Shown here: positions 51,937-54,481 of the stretch, one piece after another
Layout: the number at the start of each line of letters is the position of its first letter
Numbering within the stretch: the stretch's first letter is position 1
Source: Pimelobacter simplex
Lineage (GTDB): Bacteria > Actinomycetota > Actinomycetes > Propionibacteriales > Nocardioidaceae
Assembly: GCF_024662235.1 (NCBI RefSeq)
Contig: NZ_CP096276.1
Span: 4,526,001-4,590,000 of the forward strand
DNA: 64,000 bases
Reading direction: 5' to 3'
Made by a program: the position numbers and the translations under genes
The notes under the pieces: model-generated
What the model saw: only the letters and a program-made list of their open reading frames with translations
Told to the model about the DNA's origin: nothing
Database searches by the model: none

Positions 51937-52746
51937 ATGGCCTCCGCGGGTACGCCGCCGACCGCTGCGTTCTTCGACCTCGACAAGACGATCATCGCCA
52001 AGTCGAGCGTGCTGGCCTTCAGCAAGCCGTTCCAGGCCGGCGGCCTGATCTCCCGCCGCGCGGTGCTGCGCTCGGCGTACGCCCAGTTCGTCTTCATGGT
52101 CGGCGGGGCCGACCACGACCAGGTCGAGAAGATGCGCCAGTTCATGTCCCAGCTGTGCGCCGGCTGGGACGTCGCGACGGTCCGCGAGATCGTCGCCGAC
52201 ACGCTCCACAACGTCGTCGACCCCCTGGTGTACGACGAGGCGGTGCGCCTCATCGAGGAGCACCACGCCGCCGGGCGCGATGTCGTCATCGTCTCCACGT
52301 CGGGCAGCGAGGTGGTCGAGCCGATCGGCGCCCTCCTCGGCGCCGACCGCGTCGTCGCCACCCGGCTCAAGGTCGAGGACGGCCGCTACACCGGCGAGAT
52401 CGAGTACTACGCCTACGCCGAGGAGAAGGCGAACGCGATCCGCGAGCTCGCCGAGAGCGTCGGCTACGACCTGGAGAACAGCTACGGCTACTCCGACTCG
52501 GTGACCGACGTGCCGATGCTGGAGGCCGTCGGCTTCCCCCACGCGGTCAACCCCGACAAGGAGCTGCGCAAGGTCGCGGCCGCCCGCGGCTGGCCGGTGC
52601 TGGTCTTCACCCGGCCGGTCGCGCTGCAGTCCCGGCTGCACCTGCCACCGCCGAAGCCGACCCTCGCCGCGCTCGCGGTGGGCGGTGTCGTCGCGGTCGG
52701 CACCGCGGTCTGGATCGGCGCCCGCCGCCGCACGTTCAGCGACTGA
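51937..52746 (+). CDS. HAD-IB family phosphatase with C-terminal membrane helix
   Basis: This 269-residue protein has a SerB-type HAD fold: motif I FFDLDKTIIA, motif II IVSTSGS, a Lys in the VVATRLKVEDGRYTG region, and motif III GYSDSVTDVPMLEAVG. The C-terminal cap ends in a hydrophobic helix (ALAVGGVVAVGTAVWI), as in mycobacterial Rv3661. The family covers phosphoserine phosphatase and lysophosphatidic-acid-type phosphatases; the membrane helix favours a lipid-linked substrate. It diverges from the tad operon, and the putative 6S-like RNA follows it. Confidence 0.88.
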   Translation: MASAGTPPTAAFFDLDKTIIAKSSVLAFSKPFQAGGLISRRAVLRSAYAQFVFMVGGADHDQVEKMRQFMSQLCAGWDVATVREIVADTLHNVVDPLVYDEAVRLIEEHHAAGRDVVIVSTSGSEVVEPIGALLGADRVVATRLKVEDGRYTGEIEYYAYAEEKANAIRELAESVGYDLENSYGYSDSVTDVPMLEAVGFPHAVNPDKELRKVAAARGWPVLVFTRPVALQSRLHLPPPKPTLAALAVGGVVAVGTAVWIGARRRTFSD

Positions 52747-52802
52747 ACCGGCAGGCGGCCCCAACCGGCCACACTCCCCCGGCCACGCCGAAAAGACAAC
52801 CC

Positions 52803-52831
52803 TTGAAGGTGCCTCGGCAGCGGCGTACAAA
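52803..52831 (+). promoter_or_regulatory. Sigma-A-type promoter TTGAAG-N17-TACAAA
   Basis: TTGAAG (52803-52808) and TACAAA (52826-52831) are separated by 17 nt, an unusually good -35/-10 pair for this window. It points into a gene-free interval and would start an RNA near 52838. Confidence 0.45.
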
Positions 52832-52837
52832 GGACTT

Positions 52838-53012
52838 CAAGAACTCAAGAGCAACACGTGATCCCGGTACCCACGCGGCGATCCACCCTTCCTAACAGGG
52901 CGCTGAAACTCGGAAAATGTCCGGGGCAGCAATTACCGGTGCACGCCTGGTAGCCATGGTTCACGTGTCAGCGGTGGCACCCGAGACGTTCGTCGGCTCG
53001 GGTGCCACCTGC
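52838..53012 (+). ncRNA. Candidate 6S/Ms1-like RNA, about 175 nt
   Basis: This interval lies between the Rv3661-like HAD gene and the Rv3662c-like gene, where mycobacteria encode Ms1 (MTS2823). It has its own promoter and terminator. It can fold into a long rod: ACACGTGA/TCACGTGT closing stem (52854-52861 with 52961-52968), TACC/GGTA, GGCG/CGCC and CACC/GGTG, then a large open loop (52888-52901 against 52931-52935) and a capping hairpin (CTCGG/CCGGGG). An interrupted rod with a central bubble is the 6S pattern. The fold was drawn by hand, so this rests mainly on position. Confidence 0.45.
52973..53009. terminator. Strong 13-bp hairpin terminator
   Basis: GGTGGCACCCGAG and CTCGGGTGCCACC pair perfectly around an 11-nt loop. 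It lies between the HAD/ncRNA region and the stop of the convergent Fic-like gene at 53022, so it can serve both strands. Confidence 0.8.
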
Positions 53013-53021
53013 ATGTACGGG

Positions 53022-53750
53022 CTATTCCGCGTCCCGCACGAGCGGGCTCGCCTCGGCGGCCGCCGCATAGGCCTCGGTCGCGTACAGCAGCCAGGCGTGC
53101 ATCCCGGCAGGGCCGCCGCCGGCCCAGCCGCGCAGGTTCGACTCGTACTGGGGCCGCAGCGCCAGGTGCGCCGCCTCCGGTACGACGAGCGACTTCTCGT
53201 CGACGCCCTTGGCCGCCAGCACCAGCCGCTCCGCGGCCCGCGCCACGACGCCGTTGTGGGAGCCGAACGGCGCCGCCGTGACCAGCTCGGCATGGACGAC
53301 GGCCGCGACCGCGAGCGCCGGTGCCTCGGTGGGCGCGGTGACCAGCTCGGCGATCCCCCGCAGCTTGGCCGCGGACTCGCCGTCGCGGGGCCGGCCGAGG
53401 AGCTCGTCGGGCAGCACCCCGCGCGCGGCCAGGGTGTGCATCCGGGCGAGCGCCTGGAGCGGCTGGCGGCGCAGCACCGGGACGAGCGAGAGCAGCTCGG
53501 TCGCCAGCCGTACGGCGTCCGCCGCGATCTCGTCCCCCTCGCCCGCCCGCACCTGCGCGAGCGTCGCCGTCGAGCCCTCGAGGACGGCGCTCGCGTGGGC
53601 ACCGCGCAGCAGCGACTCGGCGGTCAGGTCCGGACCGGTCCGGCGCAGGCCACGGTCGCGCAGCAGGACGTCGATGCCGTCGCGGGCCGCGGCGAAGCCG
53701 GACGGGACGCCCTCGAGCGAGACGAGCCAGGCATGGGGGTCGGAGGTCAC
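53022..53750 (-). CDS. Fic/DOC-like helical protein (Rv3662c-type)
   Basis: This 242-residue protein is mostly helical. Its best clue is APFGSHNGVVARAAERLVL, which resembles the Fic motif HPFxxGNGRxxR but lacks the first His, so AMP-transfer activity is unlikely. Position after the HAD gene matches M. tuberculosis Rv3662c, often annotated as oxidoreductase without good evidence. GTG 53750 is the start, with TAGGCT 6 nt before it. It diverges from the VapBC module across 72 bp. Confidence 0.72.
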   Translation of the reverse strand: MTSDPHAWLVSLEGVPSGFAAARDGIDVLLRDRGLRRTGPDLTAESLLRGAHASAVLEGSTATLAQVRAGEGDEIAADAVRLATELLSLVPVLRRQPLQALARMHTLAARGVLPDELLGRPRDGESAAKLRGIAELVTAPTEAPALAVAAVVHAELVTAAPFGSHNGVVARAAERLVLAAKGVDEKSLVVPEAAHLALRPQYESNLRGWAGGGPAGMHAWLLYATEAYAAAAEASPLVRDAE

Positions 53751-53804: not shown

Positions 53805-53822
53805 TCCGTGGCGGAGGTCGAG

Positions 53823-54095
53823 ATGAGCCTGAACATCAAGAACGAGCGGGTCCATGCACTCGCCCGCGAAGCGGCGCGGGTGACCGGAAAGAACCAGACG
53901 AGTGCGATCGAGGAGGCGTTGGAGTTGCTGCTCGCGAGATACGGGAGCGATCCGGTGGCCGCGGACCGGGAACGGCGGATCGACATCATCCGCAACCTCG
54001 CACTGGAGTGGAAGGAGCGTCCCCGGGCCGAAGGGGACGACCGGATCTGGAACGAGGACGACCTCTACGACCCTCAGACGGGATTGCCCGCATGA
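53823..54095 (+). CDS. vapB: VapB-type antitoxin (Rv0623-like)
   Basis: This 90-residue antitoxin starts SLNIKNERVHALAREAAR, the typical N-terminal ribbon-helix of the PSK/Rv0623-like VapB group, followed by VTGKNQTSAIEEALELLL. The tail (RIWNEDDLYDPQTGLPA) should wrap the toxin. ATG 53823 was chosen because GGAGG precedes it and the family starts here; GTG 53808 is less likely. It overlaps vapC by ATGA. Confidence 0.9.
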   Translation: MSLNIKNERVHALAREAARVTGKNQTSAIEEALELLLARYGSDPVAADRERRIDIIRNLALEWKERPRAEGDDRIWNEDDLYDPQTGLPA

Positions 54096-54481
54096 TCGTC
54101 GACACGTCCGCACTCGTCGCGATCCTGCGCGACGAACCCGAACGGGAGGAGTTCGCCCGCCTGCTGCTGAGCACGTCGGCACGGATCTCCGCGGCCAACT
54201 GGCTCGTGGCGACGATGGTGGCCGACGGCTCGGGGGACAACGGCGCGGGCGACCGACTCGACCGGATCGTCGAGACCGCCGGTCTCGCTATCGAACCGGT
54301 GACCGAGACCCACGCGCGGGCGGCCCGGATCGCCTTCCGTCGCTACGGTCGCGGGTCAGGCTCACCAGCCCGGCTCAACTTCGGTGACTGCTTCGCCTAC
54401 GCGCTGAGCGCCACCTCGGGCGAGCCGCTGCTGTTCAAGGGGGTGGACTTCACGCACACCGACGTCCTCAGCGCACGCTGA
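54092..54481 (+). CDS. vapC: VapC-type PIN toxin with a missing catalytic Glu
   Basis: This 129-residue PIN-domain ribonuclease has Asp4 (MIVDTSAL), Asp99 (NFGDCFAYAL) and Asp119 (KGVDFTHTD). The fourth acidic residue, normally Glu in the helix after ISAAN (NYLEAA in close relatives), is Val39 here (ANWLVATMV). Metal binding and RNA cleavage may be weakened. The ATG overlaps the vapB stop, so toxin synthesis depends on antitoxin translation. Confidence 0.88.
   Translation: MIVDTSALVAILRDEPEREEFARLLLSTSARISAANWLVATMVADGSGDNGAGDRLDRIVETAGLAIEPVTETHARAARIAFRRYGRGSGSPARLNFGDCFAYALSATSGEPLLFKGVDFTHTDVLSAR

Follow-up and report, generated by a model that had tools for sequence, protein, structure and literature searches.

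A probable compact Ms1-class small RNA gene between a HAD-IB hydrolase gene and its convergent neighbour in Pimelobacter simplex

Ms1 of Mycobacterium smegmatis is described as an abundant RNA of stationary phase that binds the RNA polymerase core free of sigma factor, and a mutant devoid of the internal bubble is reported to bind the core much less (PMC4191392). The Streptomyces coelicolor RNA scr3559 is reported to associate with the core, HrdB being absent; its 5' end is given as 3,934,693 and its 3' end as 3,934,920, which makes it 228 nt long, and it starts 134 nt into its gap (PMC9130861). The same paper predicts Ms1 by synteny and then by similarity of the gap sequences, reaching 708 species and 109 genera from one match. 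Its Table 4 includes Nocardioides, Marmoricola, Aeromicrobium, Kribbella and Pimelobacter among the genera with a predicted Ms1. Streptomyces actuosus is the species of its synteny match, neighbours in other Ms1 regions are annotated as oxidoreductase or Fic, and similarity among non-mycobacterial gaps is already in print there. The kind of RNA is known before, and its occurrence in the genus is predicted in print (PMC9130861). Three things look new: the explicit core that this RNA has in common with mycobacterial Ms1, its compact form of about 172 nt, and a model that reaches across the class. No covariance model that brings these RNAs together turned up in the open-licence literature searched, supplementary files aside, and a search for Nocardioides small RNAs with loose terms gave nothing relevant among the matches listed.

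The locus described here lies in a window of 64,000 nt, the whole stretch of Pimelobacter simplex DNA that was analysed. Positions 52803-53009 of the window are best read, with a probability of roughly 0.83, as a compact small RNA gene of the Ms1 class, the product of which would by homology bind the core polymerase.

Anatomy of the predicted gene

The gap at 52747-53021 is flanked by a gene that the first-pass annotation had assigned to the HAD family, an assignment confirmed by two profile matches, and by a convergent gene (53022-53750) for which a search of Pfam and NCBIfam matched no family (Table 1). Just past the convergent neighbour, at 53808-54478, is a toxin-antitoxin-like pair of genes, one PSK_trans_fac (PF07704) antitoxin-like and the other encoding a PIN domain (PF01850). 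Within the gap, 52803-53009 would constitute a free-standing gene with its own promoter and terminal hairpin. The predicted RNA has a leader of about 16 nt, followed by a closing stem that would lead into a near-invariant core helix, interrupted by a 2x2 loop, a 1x1 mismatch and a bulged A, and from there into a three-way junction bearing two short hairpins. To set the start of the transcript, the first position of the RF02566 (Ms1) model was taken as a guide; at locus L139 it lies 7 nt past TACAAA. The 3' end was placed at the terminal hairpin. The 8-bp closing stem had been recognized at the first pass, as had an inner bubble; the opening is present, and a more apt description of it is a helix, broken by small internal loops, that is topped by a three-way junction carrying two hairpins. 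The earlier length of about 175 nt holds as a prediction (172-175 nt). It had been taken as nearness to 6S RNA, which is not sustained: the length would reflect a compact Ms1 instead.

Table 1. Features of the predicted RNA gene and its neighbours (window positions)
Feature	Position	Strand	Remarks
HAD-IB hydrolase gene, 5' neighbour	51937-52746	+	PF12710 127 bits, TIGR01490 201 bits
-35-like hexamer TTGAAG	52803-52808	+	read from the sequence
-10 block GGCGTACAAAGGA	52822-52834 (hexamer TACAAA 52826-52831)	+	17-nt spacer to TTGAAG
Predicted transcript, about 172 nt	52838-53009	+	both ends inferred
Match to covariance model R1	52847-52976	+	125.2 bits, E 1.5e-24; same sequence also in the training set
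Closing stem, 5' arm ACACGTGA	52854-52861	+	pairs with 52961-52968, 8 bp
Core helix, 5' strand GGUACCCACGCGGCG, internal loops	52866-52880	+	near-invariant in 80 relatives
Junction hairpin A (CCCU/AGGG)	52886-52900	+	
Junction hairpin B (short arm of about 29 nt)	52902-52930	+	compensatory changes; arm long in mycobacterial Ms1 (RF02566 consensus and L139)
Core helix, 3' strand UGCACGCCUGGUAGCC	52940-52955	+	near-invariant; RF02566-like pairs
Closing stem, 3' arm TCACGTGT	52961-52968	+	pairs with 52854-52861
Terminal hairpin, presumed terminator	52973-53009	+	without T-run
Convergent 3' neighbour gene	53022-53750	-	homologue near the RNA in most distant loci examined

The folding energy of 52838-53012, which lies inside the stretch proposed for folding at the first pass (52800-53020), is -79.4 kcal/mol (z -4.40), and 0 of 200 shuffles equal it. 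For the whole gap, z is -2.67 on the + strand (2 of 200 shuffles as good) and -2.36 on the - strand (4 of 200). The RNA is assigned to the + strand because of the promoter, the hairpin and the orientation of RF02566. Wobble cells counted for the sense strand are 206 G.U vs 40 C.A in alignment A1 (see below) and 61 vs 64 in alignment A5, counts that are biased by the choice of pairs and were given no weight.

The promoter-like pair TTGAAG-N17-TACAAA of the first-pass annotation is read directly at 52803-52831. It is unremarkable alone, and a sigma-70 scan gave 0 sites; a terminator scan in which T's were required found no terminator. Since both scans were empty, conservation was taken as the evidence instead. 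The -10 block is recognisable in 66 of 80 Nocardioidaceae sequences when at most 4 mismatches in 13 positions are allowed, and TTG precedes it with a 17-nt spacer in 55 of these 66 relatives and with 18 nt in 2, while 9 have none. Mean pairwise identity is 80% in the -10 block (66 sequences), a figure inflated by motif-based finding, 31% in the 40-nt block upstream of the gene (61 sequences), and 94% (80 sequences) and 89% (76) in the two core strands, where motif-based finding favours high values. With at most one mismatch, the block GTACAAAGG stands before 16 of the 36 RNAs that are distant or divergent, Ms1 loci and Streptomyces included; locus L122, in which the block overlaps the start of the model, was omitted from this count.

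The terminal hairpin consists of 13 pairs in a row, a mismatch and 2 further pairs. The 13-bp hairpin that had been called a terminator is thus present, its T-run is not, and it would presumably act in termination. Hairpins of at least 10 perfect pairs are found in 77 of 80 relatives vs 64 of 400 shuffled stretches. The count at 9 or more pairs (79 of 80 relatives) was dropped as evidence, since 318 of 400 shuffles reach the same. A tail (T/C)GCATGT recurs after the terminal hairpin in the window (53010-53016) and in relatives; the closing stem could pair with it through its 3' arm. The tail looked like a switch element for this stem, a reading set aside because no covariation is visible by eye.

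Conservation and copy number

Ninety loci beside the HAD gene were gathered from Nocardioidaceae genomes, 30 of them listed and 60 picked from 149 genomes. Alignment A1 consists of 67 of the 73 sequences bearing both core motifs and was made with MAFFT, the structure not being used. Covariance model R1 was built from these 67 Nocardioidaceae sequences alone, and it recovered all six motif-bearing sequences that had been excluded (L083, L086, L088-L091). The structure tested was the window RNA's own fold, which has 40 pairs in the aligned stretch; six were dropped and 34 kept.

The conserved fold that the first-pass annotation had proposed to look for in related genomes is present. In A1, 91.6% of the cells at the 34 pairs are paired, against 87.5% when the 3' letters are shuffled and 33-47% when the partners are slid. 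Double-changed cells number 134 vs 51.9 after shuffling (0 of 500 shuffles), and pairs having a double change number 13 vs 9.3 (5 of 500), which is less striking than the cell count. Five of the nine pairs of the closing-stem helix are double-changed, among them one with G-C 36 times and A-U 29 times and another with U-A 34 and C-G 21, and hairpin B covaries as well (C-G 33, U-A 24). Neither the core helix, which scarcely varies in A1, nor hairpin A, which has no double changes there, yields covariation evidence, and the invariance of the core is partly selected, the core motif having been a selection criterion for 67 of the 80 relatives. In 41 more distant matches 87.7% of the cells pair, and 157 are double-changed vs 47.6 shuffled, in a model-made alignment that leans to the structure; hairpin A covaries in this model-fitted distant set, with 96.8% of its cells paired. 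One core position (A5 columns 27 and 298) is U.G in 64 of 80 Nocardioidaceae (alignment A4); elsewhere it is C.A in 28 of 41 sequences and U.G in 7 of 41, so that one wobble-like pair is exchanged for another.

R1 has one good match in the window's own genome, the runner-up scoring 17.7 bits (E 3.4). It matches 80 of the 90 Nocardioidaceae loci, 13 of the 80 being outside the training set, and all 37 sampled genomes of the family, with one match each at E<=0.01; 17 of these genomes gave training sequences and 20 none, and no member of the family stands unmatched in the kinship-ordered listing. Among 394 genomes of the class, 144 are matched at E<=0.01 and 135 at E<=0.001, again with one match each. 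That all 144 are genuine was ruled out by the match in genome G436, which lies in coding-like DNA away from the HAD gene.

The RNA does not always adjoin the HAD gene. Ten of the 90 HAD loci have no R1 match, and in four of these genomes the RNA is found about 2-4 kb away. At L015, L026, L027 and L080 the RNA is on the strand opposite the HAD gene, and the -10 block is kept 31-37 nt before the core; the positions of the HAD and convergent genes were mapped for the first three of these inverted loci. The RNA therefore looks like a separate unit and not a part of the HAD transcript. At L210 the RNA is also on the strand opposite the HAD gene. At L154, L155, L190 and L216 (Nonomuraea, Microbispora, Planomonospora and Planobispora) the RNA has the convergent gene close by, and the HAD gene was not found in the stretch examined.

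Relation to Ms1 and distribution in the class

Direct searches with the two published models, proposed at the first pass, do not connect the gap with either family: an Rfam search of the interval at E<=10 returns neither 6S nor Ms1, and RF02566 over the whole genome has its best match (10.8 bits, E 4.9) elsewhere than in the gap and below the gathering score of 162 bits. At gathering scores, Rfam finds one tRNA alone in the window, and no 6C RNA. The link to Ms1 came through R1. At locus L139 (genome G470, family f5), where RF02566 scores 294 bits, R1 has a match of 37.3 bits that lies within the Ms1 match and shares its strand. At the four HAD-flanking f5 loci tested, the R1 match is the sole one at E<=10, with E from 5e-8 to 2e-5 in 13.5 kb; RF02566 passes its gathering score at two of the four (294 and 235 bits) and the other two are below. 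At L124, a Streptomyces-like locus, RF02566 gives a sub-threshold 29.6 bits where R1 matches. Searched genome-wide, f5 is at the edge of detection: R1 finds the true locus of G470 (E 0.006) and the false match of G436 (E 0.0066), in which the RNA copy beside the HAD gene is at a different place, and it has no match in G151 and G178. Close to the HAD/Ms1 region, 6C RNA (RF01066) exceeds its cut-off at seven loci of the class: L139 (= L144), L129, L134, L136, L123, L143 and L145.

Through the core, the RF02566 consensus and the window RNA pair alike: the helices GGY-RCC, CCA-UGG and GCG-CGC follow one another, the first two separated by a 2x2 loop and the last two by a 1x1 mismatch, and a bulged A comes next. 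Beyond the bulged A, the window RNA forms three pairs; RF02566 forms two there, preceded by two unpaired 5' nucleotides. A three-way junction follows in both. The putative assignment to Ms1 is therefore supported by homology, beyond synteny.

A pattern scan of named genomes, which demanded C before ACCC and so favoured the Streptomyces form, returned at least 120 stretches; among the matches listed (80), all names are actinobacterial. R1 matches all 15 named loci tested of those 80, a result partly built in, since they were fetched by the core motif. In S. actuosus, S. tendae and S. violaceorubidus the R1 match lies between the HAD gene and the convergent gene, the order of the window being kept. 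The block TACAAAGG precedes the RNA in these three species and at L124, and TAGAAAGG does so at L126. In S. tendae the R1 match is 205-344 nt past the HAD stop; set beside the published S. coelicolor ends, this is a comparison between species and not a mapping. A second model, R2, was made from 47 sequences of many families, four of f5 among them, so its f5 matches are not independent. With stricter filters and E<=0.001, R2 matched 20 of 26 genomes of the class and 0 of 270 others in a set of 296 genomes of the phylum, the split being read from listing order; 7 of the 20 matched genomes had supplied training sequences.

The printed sources disagree on the strand of the Streptomyces RNA (PMC8539372 vs PMC9130861), scr3559 being placed on the minus strand in PMC8539372, and the shared core bears on this. 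The orientation of the model, the -10 block and the hairpin support a direction from the HAD gene towards the convergent gene.

The distance from GTACAAAGG to the closing stem is 71-73 nt at the Streptomyces-type loci L124 and L202 and the f5 loci L139, L143 and L146, and 17-28 nt at the remaining eleven loci, including those of Nonomuraea, Microbispora, Planobispora and Planomonospora. In the 66 Nocardioidaceae the median from the end of the hexamer to the closing stem is 22 nt (range 12-42). The R1 match covers 194-206 nt at each of the four f5 loci vs 122-155 nt in nearly all other matches. Judged by these distances, the compact form is common to the window RNA and several other groups. If the weaker -10 blocks (2-3 mismatches) at L120, L138, L141, L142 and L192 are counted, the leaders there would be 52-114 nt long, and long leaders may exist in further lineages. 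A division into just two leader lengths was dropped on account of these five loci. They also lower the odds of an idea that we consider unlikely, namely that the compact form is the ancestral polymerase-binding module, that the 5' stretch added in Streptomyces, mycobacteria and perhaps others tunes which form of the polymerase is held, and that compact RNAs also grip the sigma holoenzyme and so bridge 6S and Ms1 behaviour.

Proposed function and comparison with known systems

The window RNA retains the opening and the flanking helices, from which core binding and storage of polymerase are inferred. By homology it would most likely accumulate in stationary phase and use its core helix and junction to bind core RNA polymerase that carries no primary sigma factor; the bound fraction of the polymerase would be held in reserve.

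Three other readings were weighed. The label of the first pass, '6S/Ms1-type', left room for a true 6S RNA, which would bind a sigma-70-type holoenzyme by mimicking an open promoter and serve as template for product RNAs. The length is near that of 6S, the rod has an open middle, and the Streptomyces counterpart is termed 6S-like in PMC8539372, where binding to the HrdB holoenzyme is cited. The Ms1 half of the label stands, R1 matching inside RF02566, and the 6S half falls: RF00013, which passes its threshold in 4 of 14 control genomes, finds nothing at E<=10 in this genome, and the sequence and pairs of the window RNA fit Ms1. The reported core binding of scr3559 without HrdB (PMC9130861) and the statement in PMC11077062 that no RNA was strongly associated with HrdB also speak against 6S, and we hold this reading to be very unlikely. 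Quite unlikely, too, is a compact Ms1-class RNA with other partners, which would bind both core and holoenzyme in the manner of the CoRP RNA of Corynebacterium. A 5' stretch of about 65 nt, found in Ms1 and in the Streptomyces loci, is missing from the window RNA, and CoRP RNA is reported to bind both forms of the polymerase (PMC11077062); however, the core and junction are retained, and it is the internal bubble that core binding needs in M. smegmatis (PMC4191392).

The gap might also be a mere two-way terminator and spacer between convergent genes, its folding being due to chance. The genes are indeed convergent, the gap contains an inverted repeat, and its reverse strand also outfolds most shuffles. 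A two-way terminator does not account for the conserved promoter, the covariation, the one copy per genome or the persistence of the fold in loci where the RNA is inverted or kilobases away from the HAD gene, and its chance is negligible. The compact, core-binding Ms1-class RNA is accordingly the reading that we prefer. Its compact form displays the part of the molecule kept by distant relatives and provides structural studies of core RNA polymerase with a small molecule, and the core that it has in common, pair for pair, with mycobacterial Ms1 makes the family testable by sequence.

Among the known systems, 6S RNA (RF00013) is like the window RNA in length and rod-like shape, with no match of its model in the genome. 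The CoRP RNA of Corynebacterium glutamicum, likened here by description, is an abundant RNA-polymerase-binding RNA of a related group; unlike the window RNA it is about 500 nt long, and its close homologs are reported solely within Corynebacterium (PMC11077062). The core-polymerase binder scr3559 (Str13) of S. coelicolor is about 230 nt long (PMC9130861). As judged on named Streptomyces relatives, it has the order of HAD gene, RNA and convergent gene, TACAAAGGA, the core helix and the junction in common with the window RNA; the Streptomyces core reads GGCACC...GGUAACC, in which the U.G of the window is replaced by C.A, and in two Streptomyces loci 71 nt separate the -10 block from the closing stem vs about 20 in the window. 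The remaining system is Ms1 itself (RF02566; Mycobacterium, MTS2823 in M. tuberculosis). Unlike mycobacterial Ms1, the window RNA is without the 5' hairpin domain of about 65 nt and without the long second arm, and its predicted length is about 172 nt vs the 304 positions of the RF02566 model; since scr3559 is itself shorter, the class is not delimited by a length of about 300 nt. Like the window RNA, Ms1 adjoins the HAD gene in the same orientation, is preceded by a -10 block of the form GTACAAAGG, and has the closing stem, the loop pattern of the core helix, the three-way junction and the terminal hairpin, the whole forming a long hairpin with an internal opening, the flanks of which are its most conserved part.
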